Part shown: positions 9,667-56,148 of the stretch, in pieces
Position numbering within the stretch: the first letter of the stretch is position 1
How the letters are laid out: the number at the start of each line of letters is the position of its first letter
Source of the DNA: Candidatus Paraprochloron terpiosi LD05
Lineage (GTDB): Bacteria > Cyanobacteriota > Cyanobacteriia > Cyanobacteriales > Prochloraceae
DNA: 64,000 nt
Assembly (NCBI GenBank): GCA_018141785.1
Contig: CP073341.1
Coordinates: 1,067,118-1,131,117, forward strand
Reading direction: 5' to 3'
Made by a program: the position numbers and the translations under genes
Notes under the pieces: model-generated
The model's database searches: none
What the model was told of the DNA's origin: nothing
Seen by the model: the letters and a program-made list of their open reading frames with translations, nothing else

Positions 9667-10458
9667 ATGCCTTACGACAACACCTGCAAATTCTTGGCAG
9701 AGACTTTTCCCGCTGACATTGCTACCTGGTTGTTAGGAAAACCAGTTGCTCTGACTAAACTGGAACCCTCAGAGCTGTCTCTAGAACCTATTCGCGCCGA
9801 CTCTCTCATTTTACTTCAGTCTGAGAAAGAAATTCTGCATTGCGAATTTCAAACGAACCCGGTTATAGAGATTCCGTTTCGCATGGCTGACTATAAACTG
9901 CGGGGCTATCGGTGTTATCCTGACAAGGAAATGCGCTCATTTGTCATCTATTTGCGTAAGACAAATTCTCCTTTAGTCTATCAGGATAGTTTTTGTATTT
10001 CCGGTTTACGGTATGACTACCAAGTTATAAGACTTTGGGAACAACCAACAGAGTTGTTTTTAGAGTTGCCAGGTTTACTGCCTTTTGCTAGTCTAAGTAA
10101 AACTGACAACCAAGAGCAGGTGCTCAGGGAAGTAGCAAGACGCACCCAAACTCTTCCACTAAACTCAAGCACCAGGAACATTATTGCTGCTTCCGCTGTA
10201 TTAGCTGGGTTAGTATTAAAGAAAGACTTTATTTGGCAAGTATTGAGGCAAGATATTATGCGAGAATCAGTGATTTATCAACAAATTGAAGCTGAAGCTG
10301 AAGCGAGAGGTTTAGCTCTAGGGGAAACCAGAGGTAAAGAGGAAAAAGCGCAAGAAATTGCCCTCTCTTTACTCAAGACTGGAATGAAACCCCAACAAGT
10401 GGCTCAAGTGACTGGTTTACCTCTTGAAAGGGTGCTTCAGTTACAAGGAGATAATTAA
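9667..10458 (+). CDS. Rpn-family PD-(D/E)XK nuclease, tandem copy 1
   Basis: A 263-residue member of the Rpn (recombination-promoting nuclease, formerly putative transposase) family, common in cyanobacteria. The N-terminal nuclease core contains RADSLILLQ and ILHCEFQTNP, the expected aspartate and glutamate positions. A C-terminal helical tail contains EAEAEARGLALGE and TGLPLERVLQLQGDN. It is nearly identical to the next gene, with which it abuts (TAA then ATG), so the pair is a recent tandem duplication. Family members cut DNA and promote RecA-independent recombination. Confidence 0.8.
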   Translation: MPYDNTCKFLAETFPADIATWLLGKPVALTKLEPSELSLEPIRADSLILLQSEKEILHCEFQTNPVIEIPFRMADYKLRGYRCYPDKEMRSFVIYLRKTNSPLVYQDSFCISGLRYDYQVIRLWEQPTELFLELPGLLPFASLSKTDNQEQVLREVARRTQTLPLNSSTRNIIAASAVLAGLVLKKDFIWQVLRQDIMRESVIYQQIEAEAEARGLALGETRGKEEKAQEIALSLLKTGMKPQQVAQVTGLPLERVLQLQGDN

Positions 10459-11262
10459 ATGCCTTACGACAACACCTGCAAATTCTTGGCAGAGACTTTT
10501 CCCGCTGACATTGCTACCTGGTTGTTAGGAAAACCAGTAACTCTGACTAAACTGGAGGCGAAGGAGCTATCCCTAGAACCTATTCGTGCCGACTCTCTTA
10601 TTTTACTTCAATCTGAACAGGAGATTCTCCATGGGGAATTTCAAACTAACCCAGTGGGAGAGGTTCCTTTTCGTATGGCTGACTATCGACTGCGGTGCTA
10701 TCGATATTATCCTGACAAGGAAATGCGCTCATTTGTCATCTATTTGCGTAAGACAAATTCTCCTTTAGTATATCAGGATAGTTTTTGTATTTCCGGTTTA
10801 CGGTATGACTACCAAGTTATAAGACTTTGGGAACAACCGACGGAAATATTTCTAGAGTTGCCAGGTTTACTGCCTTTTGCTAGTCTAAGTAAAACTGACA
10901 ACCAAGAGCAGGTGCTCAGAGAAGTAGCAAGACGCACCCAAACTCTTCCTCCTTCCTCCAGCACTAGGAACATTATTGCTGCTTCGGCTGTGTTGGCTGG
11001 GTTAGTATTAAAGAAGGACTTTATTTGGCAAGTATTGGGACAAGATATTATGCGAGAATCAGTGATTTATCAACAAATTGAAGCTGAAGCTGAAGCGAGA
11101 GGTTTAGCCATAGGGGAAGCGAGAGGGGAAGCGAGAGGTTTAGCTCTAAAAGCGCAAGAAATTGCCCTCTCTTTACTCAAGACTGGAATGAAACCCCAAC
11201 AAGTGGCTCAAGTGACTGGTTTACCTCTTGAAAGGGTGCTTCAGTTACAAGGAGACAAGTAA
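10459..11262 (+). CDS. Rpn-family PD-(D/E)XK nuclease, tandem copy 2
   Basis: A 267-residue paralogue of the preceding gene. Differences cluster at residues 28-70 and in the tail, where the charged repeat is expanded (GEARGEARGLALKAQE). The nuclease core RADSLILLQ and ILHGEFQTNP is intact. The start ATG follows directly after the stop of copy 1 without a separate leader, so expression probably depends on reinitiation or on a promoter within copy 1. Confidence 0.8.
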   Translation: MPYDNTCKFLAETFPADIATWLLGKPVTLTKLEAKELSLEPIRADSLILLQSEQEILHGEFQTNPVGEVPFRMADYRLRCYRYYPDKEMRSFVIYLRKTNSPLVYQDSFCISGLRYDYQVIRLWEQPTEIFLELPGLLPFASLSKTDNQEQVLREVARRTQTLPPSSSTRNIIAASAVLAGLVLKKDFIWQVLGQDIMRESVIYQQIEAEAEARGLAIGEARGEARGLALKAQEIALSLLKTGMKPQQVAQVTGLPLERVLQLQGDK

Positions 11263-16400: not shown

Positions 16401-16981
16401 ATGAAAGAAATCCAAGGTCACACTTATACCGTTCAACAACTGCTGAGTGGCAATAAATATGGGATTGATTATTACCAGCGGGAATATCAATGGCAGTCAA
16501 AACATATGGCTGAGTTAGTGAATGATTTAACAGGGCGCTTTCTGGAGGACTATAACCCGGATAACCATCGCAAAGAGGTGGGGGATTATGGTCACTATTT
16601 TTTAGGCTCCATCATCACTAGCCAACAGGGCAACCAAAAGATGATTGTGGACGGGCAACAGCGGCTCACTTCCCTCACCCTCCTCTTGATCTATCTGCAT
16701 AATCTGCAAAAGGGAAAGCGCAACGGAGTATCCATTGAACAGCTGATTTTCTCCGAAGATTATGGGGAGAAATCCTTTAACTTGAATGTACCGGAGCGCA
16801 ATGACTGCATGGAGGCTCTGTTCCAGGGCAATAATTTTGACCCCACAGGAAAAGCTGAATCCTTAAAAAATCTGGTAGGACGATATGAGGATATTGAAGA
16901 AAATTTCCCCTATGACCTGAGGGACAAGGCATTGCCCTATTTCGTCGATTGGCTGCGCAAAAAAGTGCAATTGGTAGAAAT
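16401..16981 (+). CDS. DUF262/DUF1524 (GmrSD-like) defence protein, exon 1
   Basis: The N-terminal 193 codons plus 2 nt of a DUF262 protein, family of the GmrS half of type IV modification-dependent restriction systems. Visible motifs are YYQREYQW and the nucleotide-site motif DGQQRLTSLTLLL. The coding frame breaks at 16981 where a group II intron starts. Joining 16981 to 19548 continues the frame as VEI-TASSDDDAYSIFETVNNRG, exactly the next DUF262 block. The spliced product is 614 residues (581 + 1264 nt). Without splicing, translation ends at 17015 after a few intron-encoded residues. Confidence 0.88.
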
Positions 16982-17110
16982 GTGCGGCTCGTTTCCTGTG
17001 AAGGTCGCGGCGTAAGCCAAACATAAGCAGGAACAAGGTTTCCGGGACAACGTCCCCGATAATCTAAGTCATCCGACTGCGGGCTGAAAACGGATAAACG
17101 TTCCCTTGCC

Positions 17111-17628: not shown

Positions 17629-19463
17629 ATGGTTTCTACAGAAAAGATACCCAATGTAATTATCAGAGCGATTAATGAAGGTCAAAACTGTGAATATCAC
17701 TAACCAGACTCCAATCGAATACCGCAGTTTAAAAGCCCTGAGACTTCATTTAGCAGCATTCCTGCTAATGGGGAAGATTGGCCGGAGGGCTGACGATGTC
17801 TGGAAAGACCTGCCATGGAAGAAATTCCGGCAACATGTATTTCGGTTACAGCGGAGTATCTTCAAAGCGCAAAAGAACGGTCAAAAAGCCAAGGTCAAAC
17901 GTTTACAACGGCTTTTATTACAAAGTCGTGCAGCTCAAGCTCTGGCCGTCAAACAAGTAACACAGCTGAACACAGGGCGTAAGTCCCCCCGGAGTTAATG
18001 GTAAAACAGCGCTTTCTCCCAAGGAGCGTCTAGTGTTGTGCCAAAGGTTGAACAAGCATTGGTACCACTGGAAACACCAACAACTGAGAAGGGTAAATAT
18101 CCCCAAGCCAAACGGCAAAACAAGGGGATTAGGCATCCCGACAATGGCCGACAGGGCGTGGCAGGCTCTGCTCAAATTAGCAGCCGAGCCAGCCTACGAG
18201 GCAACTGCCGGAGAAAGAAGCTACGGCTTCCGACCCGGTCGCTGTACTGCGGACGCACAAAAGCTCATCTTTGACAACCTAAAGAGCCAAACAAATGGTA
18301 AGGACAAGCTGATACTGGAAACAGATATCAGCAAATGTTTTGACGAAATTAACCACAAGGTCATGCTCGATGGAGTAGTCCTACCAATTGAAGCTTTAAA
18401 GGGGTTAAAGAAAGCCGTAAAAGCAGGCGTTCGTGGTGAATATCCCTCCAGTATGAAGGGTACCCCCCAAGGCGGGGTTATCTCACCCCTACTGGCCAAT
18501 ATCGCCCTAGATGGATTCGAGAACCTAGGGTCTGACCAGAAGGTCAGGACAGAATACACGCACAAAAGCGGGAAAAAGTCCGGTGAAAAGTACTACAAAT
18601 GGTCAGAAGGTATAAGGGGTATTCGTTACGCGGATGATGCGGTCTTTATCTGTAAACCCGGAGCTGATACCAAGAGGCTACGGGAGGATATCGACGAATT
18701 TCTAAAGTCCAGAGGGCTACGAATTAACGAAACCAAGACTAAGGTGAGTAAAGCTACGGAAGGATTCGATTTCCTGGGGTGGCGCTTTCGTGTCAATTCC
18801 CGTGGAGTCTTTAAGTCCACACCGAGCTCCGAGAATTATGCGGACATAAAGGCCAAGGTTAAAGCTACTTGGAGAAATGGCGCAACCACGGAGGCTCGCC
18901 TGAAAAGGATAGAGTCACAAATCCGAGGTTGGAGGCAATATCACAAAAACTGCGACATGAGCAAGCACTCGCTATGGTCGCTCAATCACTGGGTATGGCG
19001 TAAGCTGAGGGCTGAAAAAAGCAGGATGGCAATTAAGGAAGCTGAGAAAGCAAGGCGTCTGGCTATCAAGGGTAAACCCTTAGGGGCGGCTAAACGCCAG
19101 CTCACATCAGAGCAGATTAAGAAAGCTTTTCCAGCAGTTTCCTGGAAAGTCAATGACCACGTAATGGTCAAAGGTGATGCCTCACCCTTCAATGGGAATA
19201 CTTCCTACTGGGTCGGTCGCAACTCTAAACTATATAGGGGCCCAACCGCTGAAGCCCTCAGGCGACAGAAGAATATATGTCCGCATTGCAATCGTAAGTT
19301 CATGGAGTTGGATGGTGCCGTGGAATTGCACCACATTGACGGCAACCATAACAACTGGAAACCTAAGAATCTAGTTGCTCTCCACCGAGAATGTCACCAG
19401 GCGCAAGCAATACATTGCAAGCGTATTAAAGACGGACTCGCGAAGCGCGTCGTAAAGACATAG
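17629..19463 (+). pseudogene. Intron-encoded RT/maturase/HNH protein of A1, two frameshifts
   Basis: Homologous along its whole length to the intact 597-residue protein of intron A2. Reading from ATG 17629 (MVSTEKIPNVIIRA), one extra base near 17670 shifts the frame. A second extra base lies in the C-run near 17989. The span of 1835 nt equals 611 codons plus 2, which fits two single-base insertions. The RT motif RYADDAVF, a maturase X region and the C-terminal HNH (CPHCNRKF, ELHHIDGNHNNW) survive in the long open part 18033-19463. As written no full-length maturase is made. Confidence 0.85.
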
Positions 19464-19547
19464 GAGCACCTGAGCTGTATGAGGTGAAAGTCTCACGTAC
19501 AGTTCGTAGGAGAGGGGCGAGGTGGCAACATCTCCCTCGACTCTAAT

Positions 19548-20811
19548 CACCGCTTCTTCCGATGACGATGCCTACAGTATTTTCGAGACGGTGAACAATC
19601 GCGGCCTATCTCTATCGAACACGGATATGTTGAAAGGCTATTTGCTGGCCAGCATTGAGGATGAAGACAAGCGAAGTGAAGCGAACAACTGCATTAAGCA
19701 ATGGCTCCTAAAATTTGCAGAACAGGGCAAAGACAAAGAAACCGATTTCTTCAAGACCTGGCTACGGTCTCAGCATGGGAAGACTGTGGGGGATAGGAAA
19801 AAGGAAAAGTCCCAGGATTTTGAAGGAATCGGGGAGTATCATTATCGTTGGGTTCGCAACAATGTTCAATCCATTGGCTTAACCAATAGTGAAGCCTTTT
19901 ATAAGTGGGTCACAAAGGATTTGAATTTTTATGCCAAGGTGTATTGGAAGCTGGTCCAAGCTTCTCAGACTCTCACAAAGGGACTGGAGAGCCTTTTCTA
20001 CAATGAGGGTAAGATTCCTAGTCTGCAATATCAACTGTTACTGGCTCCATTACAACCAAGTGATGATGAGGCAAACATTAAGGCCAAGCTGAAGTTAGTA
20101 GCTGACTACATCGACTGTTGGCTAAATCGCCGCTTGTGGAATTACAAATTGATAACATTTAGCTGGGTAAAGAGCGAAGTATTTCAGCTAACTAAAGAGC
20201 TACGGAGGAAATCCCTGGAGGAGTTAAGGGACAAGCTAGTGTTGAACCTGCGAGGGCACAATGTAAAACTGAACTTTAGGGAAGCACCTCGTCTGCATAA
20301 AAGGAATCGTACAAACTTGAAGCGACTGCTTGCTCGCCTGATTGATTGGGTGGAGAAAGAAAGTCACCTACCAGGTAATTACACCAACTACATTAAATCG
20401 GGCAAGTCTGGCTATGAGATTGAGCATATCTGGGCCGATAAGTATGAGCGCCATCAAGATGAGTTTAACAACCAAGAGGAGTTTAGCGAATATCGCAACT
20501 GTTTGGGGGGTTTGCTGTTGCTACCGAAGAAAGTTAATGCTAGTCTGAAAGATAAGGACTATGATGATAAAGTTGAGCATTACCTGAAGGAGAATTTGCT
20601 GGCCAAATCCCTCCACCAGGTATGCTATGAAAACAACCCTGGATTTCTGCAAATGATAGAGCGCACAGGGTTGCCCTTTAAGCCATATTATAAAGCCAAT
20701 GGGAAAGAAAAATCAGTATTTAAGAATACTGACTTGAAAGAGCGGTCAGAACTTTATCGGCAGATTGCCGAACAGGTTTGGTCTGTTAAGCGTTTGGAGG
20801 GGGATAAATAA
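19548..20811 (+). CDS. DUF262/DUF1524 (GmrSD-like) defence protein, exon 2
   Basis: The remaining 421 codons of the gene begun at 16401. It starts with the conserved DUF262 block SIFETVNNRGLSLSNTDMLKGYLL. It ends in a DUF1524 HNH-like nuclease region with YEIEHIWADKY and NCLGGLLLLPKKVNASLKDKDY, the GmrD-type half, so this is a fused GmrSD-like protein. Such proteins cut foreign modified DNA. The single gene follows a toxin-antitoxin pair, consistent with a small defence neighbourhood. Confidence 0.88.
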
Positions 20812-21053: not shown

Positions 21054-24000
21054 ATGGCCACCCCCTTTACCCCAGCAGAAATCGCCTCACTTGGTCTCAC
21101 AGAAGAAGAATACGCCGAAATTTGCCGCCGACTCCGTCGTCATCCCAACAAAGCAGAGTTAGGCATGTTCGGTGTCATGTGGTCGGAACACTGCTGTTAC
21201 AAAAACTCCAAACCCCTACTGAGTCAATTTCCAACAAGAGGGGAGCGCATTTTAATGGGACCGGGAGAAAATGCTGGGGTGGTGGATCTGGGAGACGGAT
21301 TGCACCTAGCTTTCAAAATCGAATCCCACAACCACCCCTCTGCTGTGGAACCCTTCCAAGGGGCAGCCACGGGAGTAGGAGGTATCCTGCGGGATATCTT
21401 TACCATGGGTGCTCGTCCCATTGCTATCTTAAACTCTCTCCGCTTCGGTTCCCTGACAGACCCCAAAACACGCAGACTATTTGCCGGGGTAGTGAAAGGT
21501 ATCTCCCATTATGGCAATTGCTTAGTTGGAACTGAAACCCTAGTCTGGCGGGATCAGGATGGTATTCATTTCGACACTATTGGGGAGTTTGTGGAATCTC
21601 GTTTACCTGCAAACCTTGGGTATTGTGATGTAGATCCCAACAAGAAAGTTGAAGTGTTGTCATGGGATCCCACTACAACTGATGCAACCTGGCAACCCTT
21701 GCGTCGGTTATTTCGCAGAACTTCAACGGAGTTATTACAGATTAAAACCGCCCTCGGTCGGCAGATAACGGTAACCCCTGACCATCCCAGTCTAGTGTGG
21801 GCTGAGGGGCAGTGGCAGACAAAGCCAGCCCAAACCTTACAAGTGGGCGATATGCTTCCCATTCTCCGGGTTTTGCCCCAGGAAACCCAGCAACCAGAAC
21901 CGCTCCAAATCGATTTCCTCGATATTCTGGCTCAAGATTTATCTTCTCAAAAAGCAACCTATGTATCTCTGCCAGAGACATGGCAAGTGACTGATGAGGT
22001 GCGCCAAGCACTTTTGACAACTGTTTCTTCTGCCCAGAGTCGCCATCGCTATTTGCATAAGACCTATTTACCCTTAGCTCATTTTCTGGAGCTGGAGCCA
22101 CTTCTTCAGGTTCAACGGGCTGATTTGAAGCTGTATCGTCGGAGTGGAAAGGCAAACTACATGAAAGCTGTGGTGAATGTAGATCATCGCTTTGCGCGGT
22201 TGTTAGGTTATTACCTATCAGAAGGATGTGTTTCTGAAAATGGTAACACCTATAAAATAGTACTCACATTTGCCTTGCACGAAGACGAGTATGTGGAAGA
22301 TGTGGCCGCTGCCTTCAAAGACTTGGGTCTGAAACCTTGTATCGAACGGCTGCCTTCCACCATCGCCGTCTCTGTAACCTCTTGGCTACTGGGATATTTG
22401 CTCAAAGATGTCTGGCACTGTGGCACTTTAGCCTTTGAGAAGGCACTACCTGATATTTTCTTTCAATTTCCATCTGACATCCGCTATGAAACTCTCAAAG
22501 GGTTACTACGAGGGGATGGCTCTTTTTCCGCCAAAGTCACGTTTGCCACTACCAGCCACAAACTGTTTGAACAAACTCTCATGCTCCTCCAAGAGCGGGG
22601 GATCGTTCCGTCTATACACGTTAGACCCCCATACACAAGGGAAATTGAGGGCAGAACGGTTAACTGTCACAAACTGTGGCTATTAGAGATTCAAAATATT
22701 CGTGCTCTGACAGCACCCACCCCCATCCCCTCCCGGGAGGGGAGAAAGAGGAGGGTTGGGCAAGAACGAAACGCTGAACTAGCCGCCGCCCTGGGGCAGT
22801 ATCAAACAGGTTGCCGCCATTCTTTCCCTCGGTATACTGATTTAGATAAAGTTGCCTTGGTCAAAATTACAGATATTCAATCGGTGACGGTGGAACCGCA
22901 AATGGTTTATGACATTGAAGTGGCGAACACCCATCTCTTTATCACCACTTCTGGTTTAATCACCCATAATTGCGTTGGCGTTCCCAACGTAGGTGGTGAG
23001 GTGTACTTTGGACCTGCCTACACTGGGAACCCCATAGTAAATGCCATGGCTATAGGTTTAATAGAGACCCCAGAAATAGTCACTTCCGGCGCATCAGGTG
23101 TGGGGAACCCAGTCTTATATGTAGGTTCCACCACTGGGAGAGATGGTATGGGGGGTGCAAGTTTTGCCAGCGCTGAACTTACCGAACAATCTCAAGACCA
23201 ACGCCCCGCCGTGCAGGTAGGGGATCCTTTCCTGGAAAAGTGCCTCATTGAAGCATGTCTGCTGGCTTTTCAAACTGGTGCAGTAGTAGCAGCCCAGGAC
23301 ATGGGAGCCGCAGGTATTACCTGTTCCACTGCGGAAATGGCAGCTAAAGAGGGTTTAGGTATTGAACTTGATTTAGATAAAGTGCCAGTGCGGGAAACCG
23401 GCATGGTTCCTTACGAATACCTGCTCTCCGAATCTCAGGAACGAATGCTCTTTGTAGCCCAAAAAGGTCGTGAGCAAGAATTAATTGATATTTTCCACCG
23501 CTGGCAACTTCATGCTGTGGTGGCTGGGACAGTGATTGCTGAACCCATCGTGCGCATTAAGAGCCAAGGTAAGGTAGCCGCAGAAGTCCCCGCTGCTGCT
23601 TTGGCGGATAATACCCCCATTTACGAAAGAAAAGTCTTGACAGAACCGCCTTCTTATGCTAAAGAGGCTTGGGAATGGACAGCCAATTCCTTACCCGCCC
23701 CTACAGACTGGAATGACATCCTTTTGCAACTCCTAGCCACCCCAACCATCGCCTCGAAACGTTGGGTATATCGCCAGTACGACCATCAGGTACAAAATAA
23801 TACAGTAGTACTACCAGGTGATGGGGATGCAGCAGTAATTCGAGTCAAGGGATATCGGGGTGTAGCCGCCACCACCGACTGCAATAGTCGCTATGTCTAT
23901 CTGGATCCCTATGAAGGAGCCATGAGCGCCGTGGCTGAAGCAGCCAGGAATTTAAGCTGTGTGGGAGCAGAACCCCTAGCAGTCACCGATAACCTCAATT

Positions 24001-24755
24001 TCGGCAGTCCGGAAAATCCTGTGGGTTACTGGCAACTAGCCTCCGCATGTCGTGGTATTGCCCAAGCTTGCCGGGAATTGAAAACTCCCGTCACCGGAGG
24101 AAACGTCTCTCTCTATAACGAAACTGTAGACTCCGCTGGCAATCAGATAGCAATCTATCCTACCCCAGTAATTGGGATGATAGGTTTAGTAGAAGACGTG
24201 AGGAAGGTTTGTCCAACAGGATGGCAGACACCAGGGGATATCATTTATTTACTTGGTTCCAACACCCCCACTTTAGGTGGTTCGGAATATCTAGCCACAA
24301 TTCATGGTATAGTTGCTGGGAAACCCCCATGTGTAGATTTTGATTTAGAACGGGCTGTGCAAAAAGCAACTCGTGTGGGGATTAAAAGGGGTTGGATTAA
24401 TTCGGCTCACGATTGTAGTGAAGGAGGAATTACTGTTACTCTAGCAGAATGCTGTCTTCCCAACAACCTAGGGACTGAGATCCACTTAAACCAAGCACAA
24501 ACACAACAACGATTAGACGAATTGCTTTTTGGCGAAGCTGCTAGTAGAATCTTGGTGTCAGTTTCCCTGCACGTAGGGGCAACTTGGGAAAATTATTTAA
24601 CAGAAAATTTAGGTGAGCATTGGCAAAAACTGGGTTTTGTTAGCAATAAAGGGGAGAATATGCGTATTTTAATTGAGAGTGTCCCTGTTATTGATGTGAA
24701 GATAGAAGAAATGGGCGATCGCTTTTTGAAGGCAATTGAAAAATTGATGTCTTGA
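21054..24755 (+). CDS. purL: Phosphoribosylformylglycinamidine synthase II with intein
   Basis: 1233 codons encoding PurL interrupted by a 484-residue intein (residues 156-639). The extein parts join as GISHYGN | [17 protein letters not shown], giving a mature PurL of 749 residues, normal for the small-subunit PurL of cyanobacteria. PurL converts FGAR, glutamine-derived ammonia and ATP to FGAM in purine synthesis. Motifs include [41 protein letters not shown] and [11 protein letters not shown]. purF lies 3.4 kb downstream with unrelated genes between. Confidence 0.95.
21519..22970 (+). other. Intein with LAGLIDADG homing endonuclease inside PurL
   Basis: 484 residues beginning with Cys156 (block [11 protein letters not shown]) and ending with [12 protein letters not shown] ... 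LITHN followed by the +1 Cys640. Block [10 protein letters not shown] supplies the Thr and His. Two LAGLIDADG-like motifs, LLGYYLSEG and LLRGDGSF, are present, so the homing nuclease looks complete. All splicing residues (Cys1, block B His, penultimate His, Asn, Cys+1) are present, so autocatalytic removal is expected. Insertion lies at a conserved active-site-proximal PurL position. Confidence 0.93.
22726..22743. repeat. Perfect 18-bp palindrome inserted in the intein
   Basis: TCCCCTCCCGGGAGGGGA is a perfect palindrome within a proline/arginine-rich stretch ([16 protein letters not shown]). It is in frame and sits between the second endonuclease motif and the C-terminal splicing block, and looks like a small repeat inserted into a loop. 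Confidence 0.6.
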
Positions 24756-25767: not shown

Positions 25768-26714
25768 TTAGCCGTAGTTCCAGATGCAGTCTCTAGTGAG
25801 TTCAGAAATCGACGTTACCCCAAGAAAAGACATAGTTATTTCTAGTTCATTTACGAGAATATCTATTACTTTCCTTCTAAGTTCCTTCCTCCATGATTTG
25901 AAATCATAATTCCTGCCACTCCAGCATTCATTGCCCTGATAGCATCCTTCGGATTCAAAACTCCCTTAAGAAACACAGGGATGGAAGAATTTGTAATCAA
26001 CCATTCGATATCATTCCAATTTTGTGTAGGGTTAAAGAACAGATAGTGATACGACCGCCTTTGGATACGGCTTTGCTGCGCAGCAGTTGGGACATAAGCT
26101 TTAAAATTCACTCGCTCAATACCTGGAGGAAGTGTAACGCCTACCTCAACTTTTCGAGAATGGAGACTTCTAACAGGTTGATCCACTGTAACGACAAGGG
26201 CTTTAACACCTGAGCTGATCGCATTTTCTATTACTCCCTTGGTAAATAAGCGGTCTTCGTGAACAATAAGGTTAAGTAGCAAAGGAACCTTAGATATGTG
26301 CGCCAGCTCAGCTAGGGCAGTACTTGAGTACTCACTAACAACATAAGGGGTCTTCGACAGATTAGCTCCAGACACAGTTTCTACTTCTTTATTTGGATGA
26401 TAAAGCCCGTGATAAGCAGTAGGAGCTAGGAGTATGGGGGATGAAAGCTTGATTCCCAGTAGCTCTGTAGATACGGATACCATGCCAACATCTCGAAGAA
26501 CAGAAGGGCAAAACCGAATCCGTTCATAAGCTTTCTCGTTATCCTCTAGAGTTTGCTCTCGTGACGCTCCTCTAAATAGGACATCCCGCGCAACTTGCGG
26601 CAATGCTGCAAATGCCTCCCTCTCTATTTCTGAGACTGTCTTCAGTTTTTCTATATTCCGCTCGCTCATAATCTCACATCCTGCAACGGCTGCTGCAATA
26701 AGGTTTTCACTCAA
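25768..26714 (-). pseudogene. FMN-dependent alpha-hydroxyacid oxidase, internally deleted
   Basis: The first 282 codons match the (S)-2-hydroxyacid oxidase/lactate oxidase family: ALPQVARDVLFRGA, PILLAPTAYHGLYHP, VDQPVRSLHSRKVE and ISNHGGRNLEG. Translation then stops at 25866, where the family continues with the catalytic-loop DGGIRRG segment, which is absent. Just beyond the stop, another frame encodes ILVNELEITMSFLGVTSI, the recognisable C-terminal helix of the family, ending at 25768. So 60-70 residues including FMN/phosphate-binding residues are missing, and I call it a pseudogene. The true start is probably MSERNIEKLK, 15 codons inside the open frame. Confidence 0.7.
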
Positions 26715-26750
26715 GTCAATTCCGAAAACTGTGGCTCCGGCTTCTTAGAA
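26667..26750 (-). pseudogene. Scrap of a SAM-dependent methyltransferase
   Basis: Immediately upstream of, and in frame with, the hydroxyacid oxidase fragment reads EAGATVFGIDLSENLIAAA, a textbook motif I/II of class I methyltransferases. An in-frame stop lies directly before it. It is a short relic fused to the next gene by deletion. Confidence 0.45.
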
Positions 26751-26779
26751 ACGAAGCCAGCCTTACCACTTACTAACAA

Positions 26780-27106
26780 TCAGCTTATCTTTGCAATGTA
26801 GTTCGTGTTGGGCCAAACACTGTTGATTTCTTCTGCTTGCTGGGATGCACTGAAATTTTCCCAAACAATGCCATTGATGTCTTGATCTTCAGTGAATCCA
26901 TCAGCCGATGGATCTTCCCAACCGAGATGACGTAGCTTTTCCTGTGTTTGACCGGTTTGTCTGATGGAGAGGTTAACTCCCTCAGTACGCCATAATGCGT
27001 ATTCATTTGGAACTACCACACAAGGGCTACAGTTGAGACGTTTGGTATAATCTACAACAGATTTTTCCACATTTTCCACAGACAGGGCAATATGAATTCT
27101 ACGCAT
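26780..27106 (-). CDS. VOC (glyoxalase-like) family protein
   Basis: A 108-residue single-module vicinal-oxygen-chelate protein. The N-terminal RIHIALSVENVEKSVVDYTKRL is the classic first beta-alpha unit of the fold. RHLGWEDP and the acidic FTEDQDINGIVWENF follow. Family members bind a metal and act on varied substrates, and nothing here identifies the reaction. It directly abuts the DapF-like gene (stop 27107, start 27106), so the two form one transcript. Confidence 0.7.
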   Translation of the reverse strand: MRRIHIALSVENVEKSVVDYTKRLNCSPCVVVPNEYALWRTEGVNLSIRQTGQTQEKLRHLGWEDPSADGFTEDQDINGIVWENFSASQQAEEINSVWPNTNYIAKIS

Positions 27107-27982
27107 TTACTCCTCCATGAGAGAATTTATTTGGTTGAGAAAATCTTCTAGGAAATGGCCTTTTGTGACACTTGTTACTGGGCCTGTCATATACGCATTA
27201 CCTGATTCATCGAATGCAATATTCAGGTTTCCCCCTGGCATCTGGACTAATACATCATCATCTATTAGATCCAGCTTTCTAGCCACACTGGCAGCAGCAG
27301 TGCTACTACTGCCTGAAGCCAATGTGTAACCCGCCCCCCTTTCCCATATCATAATACCAACTTTTGCTCTATTTATGACTTTCATAAACTGAACATTTAT
27401 TTTGTTGGGAAATATTGGATTGCTTTCCAGGATTGGTCCCAATTTTCGTACTCTGGATTCAGAAAGTTCATCCGACAAAATAACACAGTGTGGGTTTCCT
27501 ACGGAGACACAGTTTATTAATATCTCTTCATCTCCAATCAGGATTCTTTCCTCAATTACTTCCCGCTCTTCTCCAGCAACAGGAATTTCTTTACTTTTAA
27601 AGTTTGGTATTCCCATATTTACTTGTATGCCTTTCCCATCTATCTCTATGTCATTTGCACCGGCAGGTGTCCATACTTGGAATTTGTCACTATTAACATA
27701 GCCTGTATCTTTAAGATACCTTGAGAATATGCGCAGACCATTGCCACTCTTCTCTGCTTCGCTACCGTCAGGATTGAAAATCCTCAAGTGAAACTGGTTA
27801 TTTCTTAAAGTTGGACCGTAGAGTATACCATCGCTACCAATGCCAAAGTTTCTATTGCAAATTAGCCTAATTATAGGACCATTCATCAAAAATTTGGTTT
27901 TATTTGGATCGATAACTATGTAATCATTACCCAATCCATTATATTTGTAGTAGTCAAAGTTTGTACTTGAGCCATGCATCAT
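27107..27982 (-). CDS. Diaminopimelate epimerase-like protein lacking both catalytic cysteines
   Basis: 291 residues with the full two-domain DapF fold: KYNGLGNDYIVID, RNFGIGSDGI, RIFNPDGSEAEKSGNGLR, VNMGIPNF, VGNPHCVI, ERGAGYTLASGSSSTAAA. In true DapF the two acid/base residues are cysteines in CGNG and ACGTG contexts. Here both are serine (Ser79 and Ser223). The two-base epimerisation of LL-diaminopimelate should therefore fail or be much altered, so I name it DapF-like. Its partners (VOC protein, decayed oxidase) suggest a specialised pathway rather than lysine or cell-wall synthesis. Confidence 0.82.
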   Translation of the reverse strand: MMHGSSTNFDYYKYNGLGNDYIVIDPNKTKFLMNGPIIRLICNRNFGIGSDGILYGPTLRNNQFHLRIFNPDGSEAEKSGNGLRIFSRYLKDTGYVNSDKFQVWTPAGANDIEIDGKGIQVNMGIPNFKSKEIPVAGEEREVIEERILIGDEEILINCVSVGNPHCVILSDELSESRVRKLGPILESNPIFPNKINVQFMKVINRAKVGIMIWERGAGYTLASGSSSTAAASVARKLDLIDDDVLVQMPGGNLNIAFDESGNAYMTGPVTSVTKGHFLEDFLNQINSLMEE

Positions 27983-28167
27983 TTTCTTTATTAATTTATA
28001 GTAAGTTTACTCTGGTTAAATTTATAGAAAACCCCAAGGCCGGGTTAGGAAACCTAAATGAATTATACAACTAGCGGGTCGTCCGAAGTACCGGGAGGCT
28101 GATCGTTATCCCATGCAATGGTACCATGCAAATAACGAGCAACCAAAATGACTAACCTTCCTAAATC

Positions 28168-29664
28168 ATGAGCCAAGTCCAGAAGACAATCCCCCTCAAA
28201 TCTCTCAACTCTGCACCAAGGTTGGACAAGCCCCAAGAAGCCTGCGGCGTCTTCGGGATCTATGCACCAGAATTTAAAGTAGGGAGACTGACTTATTTTG
28301 GTCTCTATGCCCTCCAGCATCGAGGACAAGAATCGGCGGGAATAGTCACCTATGACGGAGACACAATACATTGTCACAAAGACATGGGGTTGGTATCTCA
28401 AGTCTTTAGTGAATCAGTTTTGAATCAGTTGCCTGGTTCCTGGGCAGTGGGTCATACCCGTTATTCTACCACAGGTTCCAGCTTGAAAGTCAATGCCCAG
28501 CCAGCAGTGATTTCCACCCGTTTAGGTACTCTCACCTTGGCTCACAACGGTAACTTAGTCAATACCATGGAACTGCGGCAGCAATTAGAAGAGCGCAATC
28601 ATGATTTTCAAACCACCACTGATTCGGAAATGATTGCCGGACTTATGGCTCAAGAAGTGGATGGGGGTAAAGATTGGACTGAGGCAGCAATTAAGGCTTT
28701 ACAATCCTGTTCTGGGGCTTACAGTCTCGTTATCGGAACTCCCGCAGGGTTAATGGGAGTGCGAGATCCTAATGGCATTCGTCCCTTGGTCATTGGTATT
28801 TTAGAAGGCAATCGTTATGTGTTAGCATCGGAAACCTGCGCTTTAGATATTATCGGTGCAGAATATGTGCGGGATGTAGAACCAGGAGAATTGATGGTAA
28901 TCAATTCAACAGGGATGACGTCTTTCCGGATTCAAAGTCAGCCAGAACCAAAACTATGTATCTTCGAGATGATTTATTTTGCTCGTCCCGATAGCATCAT
29001 GCAGGATGAAACCCTCTATAGTTATCGCCTGCGCTTAGGAAAGCAACTGGCTACAGAGTCAAGAGTGGATGCAGATTTGGTCATGGGAGTGCCCGACTCT
29101 GGTATTCCCGCCGCCATCGGATTTTCCCGAGAATCTGGTATTCCTTACGGGGAAGGACTGATTAAAAACCGCTACGTTGGTCGCACCTTCATTGAACCCA
29201 CTCAACGAATGCGTGAACAAGGCATTCGCATGAAACTCAATCCCCTGAAAGATGTTTTAAAGGGGAAACGAGCCATTATTGTGGATGACTCCATCGTGCG
29301 GGGGACTACTAGTGGCAAAATAGTTAAAGCACTGCGGGATGCTGGAGCGAAGGAAGTACATATGCGCATCTCCTCCCCCCCAGTCACTCACCCCTGTTTC
29401 TACGGTATCGATACAGACAGTCAGGACCAGCTCATTGCCGCTATTAAGTCCGTAGAAGAGATTGCTGGGCACATAGGGGTAGACTCTCTAGCTTATCTTA
29501 GCTGGGAAGGTATGCTCCAAGCCACTGGAAAAAATCCAAAACATTTTTGCTCTGCTTGTTTTTCCGGAAAATATCCCATTGCTATTTCCGACCGGATCAA
29601 GGGTTCTAAGTTGATGTTAGAAGAGTTAAAAGTATTCTATGGCAATCATGAAATTTTGTTGTGA
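28168..29664 (+). CDS. purF: Amidophosphoribosyltransferase
   Basis: A 498-residue PurF, the first committed enzyme of purine synthesis (PRPP plus glutamine to phosphoribosylamine). A 25-residue propeptide precedes the catalytic Cys26 (EACGVFGIYAPE), which becomes the N-terminal nucleophile after cleavage. GHTRYSTTG, LAHNGNLVNT, IRPLVIG, GVPDSGIPAAIGF and the PRPP loop IIVDDSIVRGTTS are present. Cys residues in CIFEMIYFARPDS and ACFSGKYP fit the Fe-S type. The 3' end overlaps the next gene fragment by 17 bp. Confidence 0.94.
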   Translation: MSQVQKTIPLKSLNSAPRLDKPQEACGVFGIYAPEFKVGRLTYFGLYALQHRGQESAGIVTYDGDTIHCHKDMGLVSQVFSESVLNQLPGSWAVGHTRYSTTGSSLKVNAQPAVISTRLGTLTLAHNGNLVNTMELRQQLEERNHDFQTTTDSEMIAGLMAQEVDGGKDWTEAAIKALQSCSGAYSLVIGTPAGLMGVRDPNGIRPLVIGILEGNRYVLASETCALDIIGAEYVRDVEPGELMVINSTGMTSFRIQSQPEPKLCIFEMIYFARPDSIMQDETLYSYRLRLGKQLATESRVDADLVMGVPDSGIPAAIGFSRESGIPYGEGLIKNRYVGRTFIEPTQRMREQGIRMKLNPLKDVLKGKRAIIVDDSIVRGTTSGKIVKALRDAGAKEVHMRISSPPVTHPCFYGIDTDSQDQLIAAIKSVEEIAGHIGVDSLAYLSWEGMLQATGKNPKHFCSACFSGKYPIAISDRIKGSKLMLEELKVFYGNHEILL

Positions 29665-34088: not shown

Positions 34089-35882
34089 CTATGTCTTCAC
34101 GACGCGCTTTACGAGTCCGTCCTTAATGCGCTTGCGATGTATTGCTTGCGCCTGGTGACATTCTCGGTGGAGGGCAACTAGATTCTTGGGTTTCCAGTTG
34201 TTATGATTGCCGTCTTTGTGGTGCAACTCCACAGCTCCATCCCTCTCCATGAACTTACGGTTGCAATGCGGACACGTACCCTTCTGTCGCTTAATGGCGT
34301 TAGCGGTTGGGCCACTATATAGTTTAGAGTTGCGACCGACCCAATAGGAAATATTCCCATTGAAGGGTGAGGCATCACCTTTGACCATTACGTGGTCATT
34401 GACTTTCCAGGGAACTGAGGGAAAGGCTTTCTCTATCTGGGCTATTGTAAGTTGGCGTTTTGCTGCTCCTACTAGGGGTTTCCCTTTGATAGCCAGACGT
34501 CTTGCTTTCTCCGCTTCCTTAATTGCCATCCTGCGTTTTTCTGCCCTTAGTTTGCGCCATAACCATATCCGCAGTGACCATAGAGCGTGTTTACCCATAT
34601 CGCAGTTTTTATGATATTGCCTCCACCCTCGGACTTGTGACTCAATCCTTTTCAGGCGAGCCTCCGTGGATGCGCCATTTCTCCAAGTAGCTTTAACCTT
34701 GGCCTTTATGTCCGCATAATTCTCAGAGCTCGGAGTGGACTTAAAGAGCCCACGGGAGTTGACACGAAAGCGCCACCCCAGGAAGTCAAATCCTTCCGTA
34801 GCTTTACTCACCTTAGTCTTGGTTTCGTTAATTCGTAGCCCTCTGGACTTTAGGAATTCATCGATATCCTCCCGTAGCCTCTTGGTATCAGCTCCGGGTT
34901 TACAGATAAAGACCGCATCATCCGCGTAACGTATACCCCTTATGAGAGTGCCATCTCGGCGTCTCCTTTTCCATTGATTCAACCCCAGGTTCTCAAATCC
35001 ATCTAGAGCGATATTGGCCAGTAGGGGTGAGATAACCCCACCTTGGGGGGTACCCTTCATACTGGAGGGATATTCACCACGAACGCCTGCTTTTACAGCT
35101 CTCTTTAATCCCTTTAAGGCTTCGATTGGTAGGACTACTCCATTGAGCATGACCTTGTGGTCAATTTCGTCAAAGCATTTACTGATATCTGTTTCCAGAA
35201 TCAGCTTGTCCTTGCCGTTACACGTCTTCTTAAGTTGGTCAAAGATGAGCTTTTGTGCGTCCGCAGTACAGCGGCCGGGTCTGAAGCCATAGCTTCTTTC
35301 TCCGGCGGTTGCCTCATAGGCTGGTTCGGCTGCTAATTTGAGCAGTGCTTGCCATGCCCTGTCGGCCATTGTAGGGATGCCTAATCCACGAGTTTTGCCG
35401 TTTGGCTTCGGGATATTTACCCTTCTTAGTTGCTGGTGTTTCCATTGGTACCAATGCTTGTTCAGCCTTTGGCACAACACTAGACGTTCCTTGGGAGAAA
35501 GCGCTGTTTTGCCATCAACTCCGGGGGACTTACGCCCTTGGTTTAGCTGTGTTACTTGTTTGACGGCCAGAGCTTGAGCTGCACGACTTTGTAATAAAAG
35601 CCGTTGTAAACGTTTGACCTTGGCTTTTGCTTGTTCTTTTTGCGCTTTGAAGATACTCCGCTGTAACCGAAATACATGTTGCCGGAATTTCTTCCATGGC
35701 AGGTCTTTCCAGACATCGTCAGCCCTCCGGCCAATCTTCCCCGTTAGCAGGAATGCTGCTAGGTGGAGTCTCAGGGCTTTTAAACTGCGGTATTCGATTG
35801 GAGTCTGGTTAGTGATATTCACAGTTTTGACCTTGTCAGTCGCTCTGATAATTACATTGGGCATCTTCTCTGTAGAAACCAT
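34089..35882 (-). CDS. Intact intron-encoded reverse transcriptase/maturase/HNH (family A)
   Basis: 597 residues, uninterrupted. The N-terminal RT-0/1 region (VTQLNQGRKSPGVDGKTA, NIPKPNGKTRGLGIPTM), the palm motif RYADDAVF (YADD at 319-322), TPQGGVISPLLANIALDG, the maturase X domain (about 390-470) and a C-terminal HNH (CPHCNRKF, ELHHKDGNHNNW) are in the usual order. The protein should both splice and mobilise A2. It may also serve the defective family A copies A1, A3 and A4 in trans, since their ORFs are broken; that is inference. Confidence 0.93.
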   Translation of the reverse strand: MVSTEKMPNVIIRATDKVKTVNITNQTPIEYRSLKALRLHLAAFLLTGKIGRRADDVWKDLPWKKFRQHVFRLQRSIFKAQKEQAKAKVKRLQRLLLQSRAAQALAVKQVTQLNQGRKSPGVDGKTALSPKERLVLCQRLNKHWYQWKHQQLRRVNIPKPNGKTRGLGIPTMADRAWQALLKLAAEPAYEATAGERSYGFRPGRCTADAQKLIFDQLKKTCNGKDKLILETDISKCFDEIDHKVMLNGVVLPIEALKGLKRAVKAGVRGEYPSSMKGTPQGGVISPLLANIALDGFENLGLNQWKRRRRDGTLIRGIRYADDAVFICKPGADTKRLREDIDEFLKSRGLRINETKTKVSKATEGFDFLGWRFRVNSRGLFKSTPSSENYADIKAKVKATWRNGASTEARLKRIESQVRGWRQYHKNCDMGKHALWSLRIWLWRKLRAEKRRMAIKEAEKARRLAIKGKPLVGAAKRQLTIAQIEKAFPSVPWKVNDHVMVKGDASPFNGNISYWVGRNSKLYSGPTANAIKRQKGTCPHCNRKFMERDGAVELHHKDGNHNNWKPKNLVALHRECHQAQAIHRKRIKDGLVKRVVKT

Positions 35883-52327: not shown

Positions 52328-54040
52328 ATGATAGCGGCAACGCTAGAAAATGGACCAGAAGGACAATTAACTGAGTGGGGCGACATAAACTGGCGTCGTA
52401 CTCGGAAGATTGTTAGGAATTTACGCGGTCGGATATTTCGTGCCCGAAAGCTTGGATTGTGGAGACAACTATTATCTCTACAGAAATTAATGAAAAGATG
52501 TCGGTCGAACCTATTACTGAGCATCAGACAAATCACACAGGTAAATACCGGAAAGCGAACAGCTGGAGTAGACAAGGAGGTAATAGAAACACCAGCACAG
52601 CGTGTGAAACTTGCTAATAGTTGGAGAATGCCTAAGGCAAAACCTGCCAGACGGATATACATTCCGAAAGCGAATGGTAAGAAACGTCCCCTCGGAATCC
52701 CCACGATGAAGGATAGAGTCGCTCAGGCAATAGTCAAAAATGCACTGGAACCTGAATGGGAAGCCATGTTTGAAGCTAACTCCTACGGCTTCAGACCCGG
52801 TCGAAGTTGCCAAGATGCTATTGGACAATGTTACATTAGGCTGAGAGGGGACTATAAAACAAAAACCGGAAAGTGGGTAAGAAAGGATAAATGGGTTCTG
52901 GACGCTGATATCAAAGGCTTCTTTGATAACATTGACCATAAATCCATCTTGAGCACAGTTAGAGAAAATTCTTTAATTGAAGGATGGTTAAAAGCTGGAT
53001 TTGTCGAAAGTAGGAAGGGATACAGCCCAACTGAAAAAGGAACTCCACAGGGTGGCGTAATAAGCCCAATGCTCGCAAATATTGGACTCCACGGGTTAGA
53101 AGAATACATTATAAGATGTAACCCAAAGGTAGGCGTCATCAGGTATGCAGATGATTTCGTAGTCACTGCAAGAGACAAGGAATCCCTGGAGAAGTTGAAA
53201 ATCCAGATAAATCAATGGCTATCAGAACGAGGTCTTGAGATTAGCGAGGAGAAGACGCGGATAGTACACATAAGAGACGGATTTGATTTCCTGGGGTTTA
53301 ACCTGCGGCATTATGAGGTTAAAGGTGAGAACAGAACTCCAAGAGGGAAGTTAGTCATTAAACCCCAGAAGTCGAAGGTACTGGAATTCTGCAAGAAAGT
53401 CGGTGCAACCATCGACAACATGAAGACAAAAACACCAGAACAGGTCGTCCGTAAGATAGAACCACTTCTGGGAGGTTTTGCTAACTACTACAGAGGTGTA
53501 TGCAGCAAAGAAACCTACGAATATATAAGTTACCGACTATGGTGGTACCTCTGGCGATGGGCAAAAAGACGACACCCCAACAAAGACAAACAGTGGGTTA
53601 AAGATAAATACTTCCGAACCGAATATAAAAAGGGTGGTAAAAGAGATTGGCGGTTTTACTATGAAGGCAAAGACCGGAGGGGCAAGAGAATAGTACACAA
53701 TCTGCACGATATAGCAGCTGTCCCGATTGTAAGACATGTCAAAGTTAAGGGAACTTACTCCCCAGACGACCCTGAACTGGTGGAATATTGGCAGACGCGG
53801 CGAAATAAGTCTGGAAATAAAAGATGGGCGTGCAGGTCAAAATATGAGACAGTAGCCATCAATCAGAACTGGAAATGCCCAGTTTGCCATGACCACTTGT
53901 TCAATGGTGAGGAAATCGAAACCCATCACATAGTACCTGTAAGGGATGGAGGCTCTGACGACGAGAGCAACCTGAGACACTTGCACAAAGCATGTCACAA
54001 ACAGGTGCATTCAAGAAAATCCAAGCAGGGCTTGAAGTGA
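52328..54040 (+). CDS. Intact intron-encoded reverse transcriptase/maturase/HNH (family B)
   Basis: 570 residues, uninterrupted. RT blocks ITQVNTGKRTAGVDKEV, YIPKANGKKRPLGIPTMKD, EANSYGFRPGRSCQDAI, TPQGGVISPMLANIGLHG and the palm VIRYADDFVV (YADD 273-276). The maturase domain has LGGFANYYRGVCSKETYEYI, and the C-terminal HNH has CPVCHDHLF from 517 and ETHHIVPVRDGG. Distinct from the family A protein. It probably splices B2 and could act in trans on B1 and on the ORF-less C and D introns; the trans role is inference. Confidence 0.93.
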   Translation: MIAATLENGPEGQLTEWGDINWRRTRKIVRNLRGRIFRARKLGLWRQLLSLQKLMKRCRSNLLLSIRQITQVNTGKRTAGVDKEVIETPAQRVKLANSWRMPKAKPARRIYIPKANGKKRPLGIPTMKDRVAQAIVKNALEPEWEAMFEANSYGFRPGRSCQDAIGQCYIRLRGDYKTKTGKWVRKDKWVLDADIKGFFDNIDHKSILSTVRENSLIEGWLKAGFVESRKGYSPTEKGTPQGGVISPMLANIGLHGLEEYIIRCNPKVGVIRYADDFVVTARDKESLEKLKIQINQWLSERGLEISEEKTRIVHIRDGFDFLGFNLRHYEVKGENRTPRGKLVIKPQKSKVLEFCKKVGATIDNMKTKTPEQVVRKIEPLLGGFANYYRGVCSKETYEYISYRLWWYLWRWAKRRHPNKDKQWVKDKYFRTEYKKGGKRDWRFYYEGKDRRGKRIVHNLHDIAAVPIVRHVKVKGTYSPDDPELVEYWQTRRNKSGNKRWACRSKYETVAINQNWKCPVCHDHLFNGEEIETHHIVPVRDGGSDDESNLRHLHKACHKQVHSRKSKQGLK

Positions 54041-56148
54041 GGCTTGAGCCGGATGATTGGTAACAGTCACGTCCGGTTCTTAGGGGAGGGGAGAGAAGCG
54101 ATTCTCAAACCTTACCCGACAGCAAAGATTGCCACAACCCCTAATACCAATTAGATAGAGGCAATCAATGGATTTTCTGCCACGGCAGGTTTCAATCCAC
54201 AGGTCATAGGAGCCGTGTGAGGTGAAAGTTTCATGCACGGTTCTGAAAGGGAGCTGGGGTGGGCGACCACTCCTTCGACCCGAACAAACAACAGGATAAG
54301 CCCTACAGAGTCTAAAAGGCGGTCGATTCTTTTTTAGTAGGCCAAAGGTAACGGAGGCGGAATTCTTTGGAGGGTTGCATGATGAGTGAAAAAGCGAATG
54401 CTCTCTTGTAATGAGAGGGATAGGGATTCAAAATTTGTCCCTGTGATAAAGGAATAGCAGACTTCACTTGGGTCTCATACGAAACTATTCGACAACTAGA
54501 AACCAAACGAACGGAAAAGTTAGATGACAGAAGAAATTCTGGAAAATGGACTGAACGGACAATTAAAAGAGTGGGGCGACATTAATTGGCGTCGCACAAA
54601 GAAGATTGTTAGGAATTTACGCGGTCGGATATTTCGTGCTCGAAAGCTTGGATTGTGGAGACAATTGGTGTCTTTACGGAAACTGATGAAAAGATGTCGG
54701 TCGAACCTATTACTGAGCATCAGACAAATCACACAGGTAAATACCGGAAAGCAAACAGCTGGGGTAGACAAGGAAGTTATAGAAACACCAGCACAGCGTG
54801 TGAAACTTGCCAACACCTGGGAAATGCCTAAAGCAAAACCTGCTAGACGGCTGTATATTCCCAAGACAAATGGGAAGAAACGTCCTCTTGGAATCCCAAC
54901 CATTAGAGATAGAGTCGCTCAAGCAATAGTAAAAAATGCACTGGAACCCGAATGGGAATCCATGTTTGAAACCAACTCCTATGGCTTTGAGACCCGGTCG
55001 AAGTTGCCAAGACGCTATAGAGCAATGTTACTTAAGGCTACGCGGCGACTATAAAACAAAAACCGGAAAGTGGGTAAGAAAGGATAAATGGGTTCTGGAC
55101 GCTGATATTAAGAGCTTCTTTGATAACATTGACCATAAATCCATCCAGTGAGCAGTTAGAGAAGATTCTTTGATTGATGGATGGTTAAAAGCTGGATTTG
55201 TCGAAAGTAGGAAGGGATACAGCCCGACTGAAAAAGGAACCCCACAGGGTGGCGTGATAAGTCCCTCCCCCCGCAAATATCGGACTCCACGGGTTAGAAG
55301 AATATATTACAAAATGTAACCCAAAGGTGGGCGTCATCAGGTATGCAGATGACTTTGTAGTAACTGCAAAGGACAAGGAATCCAAGGAGCAAGTTGAAAA
55401 TCCAGATAAATCAATGGCTATCAGAACGAGGTCTTGAGATTAGCGAGGAGAAGACGCGGATAGTACACATCAGAGACGGATTTGACTTCCTGGGGTTTAA
55501 CTTGAGACATTATGAGGATAGTGCGACTCGAAAGTCGCAGTAGTTAGTGGTTCAGCCACCTGAACCCAATGGAGAGTGTCTCTCCAGTTCCCGTCCGAAG
55601 GAGTTTTGGCAGTAATGCCGGAGTTTCACAGCTAGAGGGTTAAATGGCCAAGCTACTATCAGTCCGATGGTGGTAGCGGCCTAGGGAAAGTCTGATATGG
55701 CTCGCTATCAGCGAAGTTTGCAGCCTCGTCAAGTGTGAAGAGTGAAAGCGGAACTGACACACTCTAACCAAAATGGTATGCGGCACATGTGAAAAATGGA
55801 CTTACCTCGCCATCACGTAGACACCACGCCGCCGGGGCATGGAGCAGCCTAAGTCAGACGTATCTAACTATTGCGGAACGAGTTAACCTCCACAGGGTCT
55901 GGTCTTGCACCAGTAGGAAAGGAGTAATCTGTACCAATTCCCTGGGGAGAAAGGACTCTCTTAAGAAGCGAATGGAGTCATACTGGACGAAAGTCCGAGG
56001 GAAAACACGACTGTATAACCTGACTCATAGACAAATGTCTACTCGAAAGGGGAGCTGACGTAGGAGAGGGTGAAACGTAATCCGAAAGATGGAACTTGAA
56101 ACTCAATGCTCCTCATAGTGCGGCTCGTTCCTAGCAAGTAAAGTCGCG

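Follow-up and report, generated by a model that had tools for sequence, protein, structure and literature searches.

The stretch of DNA analyzed here (hereafter, the window), 64,000 nucleotides from Candidatus Paraprochloron terpiosi LD05, encodes a homolog of diaminopimelate (DAP) epimerase, DapF, with serines, Ser79 and Ser223, in place of both catalytic cysteines. The best explanation, to which we assign a probability of about 0.7, is a working DAP epimerase that replaces the ordinary enzyme with two catalytic cysteines (Cys/Cys) and has Ser79 and Ser223 as its acid/base pair. Three observations, namely, that this is the sole DapF homolog found in its genome, that the ordinary dapF was deleted, and that relatives with the same two serines (hereafter, Ser/Ser) lie in DAP/lysine gene clusters, together point to a DAP epimerase with altered catalytic residues; on this genomic evidence, the window protein very probably functions as a DAP epimerase. 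The same observations leave mostly unsupported the proposal of the initial annotation that the protein has either a different isomerase chemistry or a binding role: the difference in chemistry survives solely as a difference in acid/base groups. The features of the locus are as follows.

27107–27982, minus strand: Ser/Ser DapF, 291 amino acids, the single DapF homolog found in its genome
27746–27748, minus strand: Ser79 codon AGT, place of the first catalytic cysteine (Cys75 of Anabaena DapF)
27314–27316, minus strand: Ser223 codon TCA, place of the second catalytic cysteine (Cys224 of Anabaena DapF)
27749–27751, minus strand: Lys78 codon AAG; Met or Leu in 25 ordinary proteins, Ile in two clostridial Ser/Ser members
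27305–27307, minus strand: Ser226 codon AGT; Gly in 25 ordinary proteins and in one clostridial Ser/Ser member
26780–27106, minus strand: VOC-like ORF, a probable passenger; its start adjoins the stop codon of DapF
25866–26714, minus strand: truncated FMN-dependent alpha-hydroxyacid dehydrogenase/oxidase (Pfam), probably a passenger

In the open frame of 291 amino acids obtained by minus-strand translation of 27107–27982, Ser79 sits in NPDGSEAEKSGNGLR and Ser223 in ERGAGYTLASGSSST. The protein matches the Pfam DAP_epimerase family (PF01678) with 187.9 bits and the NCBIfam DapF equivalog TIGR00652 with 249.5 bits, above the cut-off of 114.65; the latter profile is matched at E ≤ 0.001 by all 26 aligned Ser/Ser members, the comparison with the cut-off being for the window protein only. 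The score against the bifunctional DapF/glutamate racemase profile (NF038284) is 71.9 bits, below the cut-off of 350, and the CntK-type histidine racemase profile (NF033599) gave no match to the window protein at E ≤ 0.001 and weak matches to 2 of the 26 Ser/Ser members (best E 0.00039). The AlphaFold model, built with 51 aligned sequences, has a mean pLDDT of 95.1 and a pTM of 0.91; its best matches in the PDB are DapF structures, with Anabaena DapF (9mro) at the top (TM 0.87, 35% identity). Thus, the DapF fold is predicted to be intact, in agreement with the initial annotation.

Examination of the 51-protein alignment confirmed that the two serines occupy both catalytic positions, as had been read from the window: the two columns contain Ser in all 26 Ser/Ser rows and Cys in all 25 ordinary rows, so that neither chance nor sequencing error is a plausible cause. 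A sequencing or frame error is further ruled out by the presence of both serines in the genes of 32 of the 34 genomes with such a gene, that is, in all 32 genes that are complete (the genes of G352 and G367 are incomplete as read, and each shows the one serine that is covered). Recoding is ruled out as well because AGT and TCA are plain serine codons.

On either side of the Ser/Ser gene are purL and purF, which are encoded on the opposite strand. With 38.8% G+C, the Ser/Ser gene is below both the window (45.9%) and the ordinary dapF of a congener, G001 (48.6%), which, together with the phylogenetic tree, suggests that the gene arrived by horizontal transfer. A mobile-element origin was rejected: a scan of viral contigs with a profile of the aligned Ser/Ser members detected no relative, and the 118 matching plasmid records are all below 60% identity (35–37% in the 15 listed). 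A promoter scan of 26600–28300 yielded 2 sites, compared to 4.6 expected in shuffled sequences, with none on the strand of the gene. The window has several other features of note. The purL gene (21054–24755, plus strand) contains an in-frame intein (Pfam Intein_splicing, 56 bits; LAGLIDADG_3, 41 bits), and two near-identical ORFs (9667–10458 and 10459–11262) form a direct tandem, neither of them matching a Pfam family at E ≤ 0.001. ORFs resembling group II intron reverse transcriptases/maturases are found at five places:

18033–19463
34089–35882
52328–54040
54524–55054
56771–58258

The first of these, the only one scanned for domains, contains RVT_1 and GIIM (Pfam) and seems to interrupt a GmrSD-type gene, with the N-terminal part at 16401–17015 and the rest, identified by eye, at 19522–20811.

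The neighboring VOC-like ORF is co-directional with the DapF gene and its ATG abuts the DapF stop codon, so the co-transcription claimed in the initial annotation is plausible; the VOC identity fared less well, with a partial NCBIfam match of 27.3 bits (cut-off 116) and no Pfam match. The hydroxyacid oxidase gene is indeed broken, as noticed from the sequence: the FMN_dh match spans positions 3–255 of the 350 positions of the profile. These two genes and the EamA-like gene beyond gave no tblastn match at E ≤ 1 in 30 context loci, 28 of which contain a Ser/Ser gene; therefore, the VOC-like ORF and the oxidase were rejected as functional partners and are treated as passengers.

The window genome consists of one contig of 3.84 Mb that is 98.66% complete. 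The second, cysteine-containing dapF envisaged by the initial annotation was not found: no further DapF was detected by protein search, PF01678 (E ≤ 10) or TIGR00652. Among the 40 genomes comprising the window genome and 39 relatives, 37 have DapF. In the congener G001, an ordinary Cys/Cys dapF adjoins an hfq-type gene; after dapF come a gene for a GNAT acetyltransferase and one more ORF. At the same place, the window genome retains the hfq-type gene (Pfam Hfq_1) but lacks both dapF and the acetyltransferase gene; about 30 bp past the hfq-type gene, there is a remnant of the last ORF, 24 codons long. Because the hfq-type gene and the remnant are both retained, the ordinary dapF of the window genome was deleted rather than missed through an assembly gap. 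The rest of the pathway calls for epimerization of LL-DAP to meso-DAP, with the Ser/Ser protein as the only DapF found: the genome encodes DapL (614 bits, cut-off 365) and a MurE with the DNPR motif, which marks the meso-DAP-adding MurE, and a profile search for DAP dehydrogenase found none. Hence, LL-DAP needs an epimerase in this organism.

Relatives with both serines were identified in 34 genomes of cyanobacteria, Desulfobacterota, Clostridia and the phylum of genome G312. Of the 292 genomes of the window's phylum, 4 carry the gene. G312 belongs to a phylum with 16 such genomes among 82, G310 to one (Desulfobacterota) with 7 among 345, and G311 to a class (Clostridia) with 6 among 391 in a search at E ≤ 1e-40; the gene is also present in a second L. 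phytofermentans genome, G313. In the open-access literature, we found no description of a natural Ser/Ser DapF; the original work on DapF mutants lies outside that scope. The family tree proposed in the initial annotation recovers one clade: in a tree of 73 DapFs (27 Ser/Ser and 46 of the Cys type, built with a quick method without bootstrap and leaving out two incomplete Ser/Ser genes, one Cys row and five further clostridial genes), all Ser/Ser proteins lie on one side of a branch with SH-aLRT support of 100. The cyanobacterial members from G058, G111 and G259 group with one Desulfobacterota member (support 96), and the window protein branches away from them, so that the Ser/Ser gene probably arrived in the window's phylum at least twice. 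The first serine is encoded by AGY in most members and by TCN in G349, G355, G356 and G348; since a switch between these codon classes has to pass through another residue or involve a double change, serine at this position seems to be actively kept.

As to DISPLACEMENT of the ordinary enzyme, 24 of the 27 Ser/Ser genomes in the three phylum searches have no other DapF match, compared to 36 of the 692 other genomes (the remaining 656 have a match). Fisher's exact test gives p = 2e-25 for the pooled searches and, phylum by phylum, 1e-4, 1e-8 and 4e-7, under an assumption of independence that genomes do not satisfy. The protein search could miss a second DapF that is very divergent, and in the phylum of G312, where 15 of the 16 Ser/Ser genomes lack any other match, some ordinary DapF matches are as weak as E 1e-6. 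A further DapF match at E ≤ 0.001 was obtained in three of the 27 genomes, G058, G379 and G477; in G352 and G367, the second matches are pieces of one gene, and no further DapF was counted. The second copy is of the Cys/Cys type in G058, which looks like an intermediate state, and in G379. In G111 and G259, which belong to one genus, the Ser/Ser DapF is alone, a second displacement within the window's phylum. Six genomes of these searches (G065, G108, G114, G139, G226 and G291; genus g98, family f47; 97–99% complete, 1.7–1.8 Mb) gave no DapF match at all.

Both L. phytofermentans genomes also hold a Cys/Cys DapF along with DAP dehydrogenase, and G477 and G851 have a second DapF match. Thus, at least 6 of the 34 Ser/Ser genomes have a further DapF, a count to which the clostridial cut-off (E ≤ 1e-40) was too strict to add any from G981, G990, G761 and G969. 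The Ser/Ser protein may accordingly do something else in these genomes, and it may have another role in those that retain a Cys/Cys enzyme and in Clostridia generally. Clostridia also encode a fusion, CarB-DapF, in which an ordinary-type DapF domain ends long frames (about 930 to 1350 amino acids) and is preceded by carbamoyl-phosphate synthase large-subunit and MGS-like domains (Pfam, three stretches), and the clostridial search returned about 20 more DapF matches in open frames of 900 to 1370 amino acids. The three fusion frames, from G777, G869 and G1094, are:

L215, 1465–3792, minus strand
L219, 1–2337, plus strand
L220, 1–2334, plus strand

Among the 24 sole-copy genomes, DapL scores above the cut-off in 16; in G356, the gene is divided between contig ends and scores 358 bits, under the cut-off of 365, and no match above the cut-off was obtained in G111, G259, G310, G404, G588, G673 and G352. 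A bypass through DAP dehydrogenase was rejected: this enzyme is above the cut-off in G311 and G313 alone and in none of the 24, five of which gave weak matches far below the cut-off. At E ≤ 1e-60, 15 of the 24 gave a MurE match, always with DNPR; the nine genomes without a MurE match at this strict threshold (G349, G353, G347, G354, G355, G356, G348, G352 and G367), which counts against the favored explanation, all belong to the phylum of G312 and nevertheless contain clusters of DAP-pathway genes. These data bear on the possibility that the Ser/Ser protein is a catalytically dead DAP-binding or regulatory protein, as might be expected from engineered Cys-to-Ser enzymes of the DapF fold, which are described as close to dead (PMC8225329, PMC11602996). 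Such a protein would mean that 24 genomes, of which 16 have DapL above the cut-off and none has DAP dehydrogenase above the cut-off, possess no known route from LL-DAP to meso-DAP; besides, one would not expect a dead pocket to retain both serines across codon classes. We consider this explanation highly improbable.

The gene neighborhoods of the Ser/Ser variants, which the initial annotation suggested inspecting, point in one phylum to DAP epimerase. In the phylum of G312, dapA, dapB or dapL lies within 1 kb of the Ser/Ser gene in all 16 genomes, and the full gene order is lysC-dapB-dapA-[Ser/Ser]-dapL-lysA. In this phylum, dapL is the next gene in 13 of the 16 (in the other three, L142, L144 and L153, a contig end lies less than 300 bp from the Ser/Ser gene), the gene immediately upstream is dapA in 11, and lysA comes after dapL in 9; for locus L006, the Pfam domains are consistent with the names of the lysine-cluster genes. 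Against the favored explanation, the cyanobacterial and Desulfobacterota genes lie outside DAP clusters: when the L006 genes served as tblastn queries against the fetched Desulfobacterota, cyanobacterial and clostridial stretches, the only DAP-gene matches next to the Ser/Ser gene were weak aminotransferase ones in L156 (24% identity) and L223 (22%). Two clostridial copies speak for the favored explanation: in G981, the Ser/Ser gene shares one base with a D-Ala-D-Ala ligase gene, and in G969, an alanine-racemase-like gene is located two genes upstream.

The pocket itself is largely unchanged. In Anabaena DapF, a DAP analog is reported to contact Asn13, Asn66, Gly76, Asn77, Asn164, Asn197, Glu215, Arg216, Gly225 and Thr226, with the catalytic sulfurs touching the backbone NH of Gly76 and Gly227 (PMC12039745). 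The equivalents of the DAP-contacting residues, mapped by motif and alignment, are identical in all 26 Ser/Ser rows except that Thr226 is replaced by Ser225. This conservation, the position of the gene between dapA and dapL in one phylum, the loss of the ordinary dapF from the window genome and the lack of any other match in 24 of the 27 genomes all argue against the possibility that the protein acts, as an isomerase or otherwise, on another substrate and that DAP is epimerized by a non-homologous enzyme. Substrate switches are on record for the DapF fold, to histidine, O-ureidoserine and diaminobutyrate (PMC12039745), a further DapF is present in six of the 34 genomes (a lower bound), and the clostridial members are the most divergent in the two motifs; even so, a change of substrate appears improbable.

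Several changes accompany the serines in the aligned Ser/Ser rows: Lys78 (26 of 26; Met or Leu in ordinary rows), Ser225 (for Thr), Ser226, which replaces the Gly whose NH contacts the second catalytic sulfur in the ordinary enzyme, Tyr219 (25 of 26), Gln198 and Glu211 (25 of 26; Met in the window protein). Lys78 or Ser226 as a required new base is a weakened candidate: among the five clostridial members that lie outside the 51-protein alignment, both serines are kept in L194 and L198, where residue 78 is Ile, and in L198, residue 226 is Gly as well, so that Lys78 and Ser226 would be dispensable.

We propose the following mechanism. LL-DAP made by DapL would be converted to meso-DAP for peptidoglycan and lysine. 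Substrate binding would close the two domains and exclude water, as in DapF, and Ser79 and Ser223, each located at a helix N-terminus and together standing in for the thiol/thiolate pair, would flank the alpha carbon as general base and general acid in a 1,1-proton transfer. The helix dipoles and the backbone NH groups at the helix N-termini would stabilize an alkoxide-like serine on one face, which would take the alpha proton, with the serine on the opposite face donating one. The proline racemase superfamily includes serine-type enzymes whose catalytic serine is held by the residue three positions further along (PMC4113996); residue 226, three after Ser223, may play this part here.

The main difficulty for this mechanism is the near-dead state of Cys-to-Ser mutants of related enzymes: single mutants of PddB are reported to have less than 0.1% activity (PMC8225329) and those of HisR greatly reduced activity (PMC11602996). 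A natural enzyme, arguably, has had time for compensating changes. No precedent for a catalytic Ser/Ser epimerase pair was found in the open-access literature. Alcohols are poor bases (pKa of about 16 for the hydroxyl and about 10 for the thiol, according to PMC8225329), and Lys78 is a new basic residue beside Ser79 in all 26 aligned rows; hence the alternative of a DAP epimerase in which the serines, or one of them, do not carry protons and Lys78, or His165/Glu214 through water, acts in their stead. We regard this as unlikely, if less so than a change of substrate, given that two clostridial members have Ile in place of Lys78 with both serines intact, that both serines are retained across codon classes, and that His165 and Glu214 are not new, being present in all 25 ordinary rows as well. 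On balance, we lean toward a joint conclusion on the entire Ser/Ser clade, namely, that these are DAP epimerases that perform two-base C-alpha epimerization with a serine/serine pair and no thiol that gene transfer has carried them into at least four bacterial groups, and that they are essential where they are the sole copy.

DapF is a model for the removal of an alpha proton with a pKa of about 29 by a weak thiolate and a long-standing antibacterial target that is attacked via its thiols (PMC12039745); the C. glutamicum enzyme is described as inactivated by a disulfide between the catalytic cysteines (PMC5296763). If the Ser/Ser enzymes catalyze the DapF reaction as well, the mechanism would not require a thiol/thiolate pair, pre-organization, desolvation and helix dipoles would do most of the work, and the accepted chemistry of DapF may be incomplete. 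Such enzymes would provide a natural, oxidation-proof comparison for Cys/Cys DapFs, in a form beyond inactivation by thiol reagents or disulfide formation, and annotation would be calling their genes DapF without flagging the missing catalytic cysteines. To our knowledge, the Ser/Ser DapF would be the first all-hydroxyl cofactor-independent amino-acid racemase.

Natural pairs with a single hydroxyl residue, Ser/Cys (PMC4113996) and Cys/Thr (PMC8142540), are reported to be active. In the proline racemase superfamily, the 4-hydroxyproline 2-epimerase (Ser/Cys) resembles the window protein in that it has a natural serine for one catalytic cysteine and a DapF-like fold and epimerizes its substrate, but it retains one cysteine and acts on another substrate (PMC4113996); the trans-3-hydroxyproline dehydratase (Ser/Thr) of the same superfamily differs in being a dehydratase with another substrate (PMC4113996). 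The aspartate/glutamate racemases EcL-DER and MMP0739 (Cys/Thr) likewise have a hydroxyl residue for one cysteine and are cofactor-independent; in contrast to the window protein, they have the glutamate racemase type of fold, keep one cysteine and are one-directional or predicted to be so (PMC8142540). The H. influenzae DapF mutants C73S and C217S (PDB 2q9h and 2q9j), which are among the top fold matches of the predicted model, carry serine at the equivalent positions but are engineered, with a single serine each, and such mutations are stated to hinder catalysis (PMC12039745). With the DapF family, represented by Anabaena DapF (9mro), the window protein shares the predicted fold (TM 0.87), length, family score and DAP-contacting residues, and the Ser/Ser gene, in one phylum, shares the place in the pathway gene cluster. 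The differences are Ser for both catalytic cysteines in the clade of the window protein, Ser-Ser for the Thr-Gly that follows the second cysteine in the 26 aligned Ser/Ser members, and Lys for Met before the first catalytic position. Lacking the two cysteines, the Ser/Ser protein is filed as a variant that probably does the job of DapF and not as a canonical member of the family.
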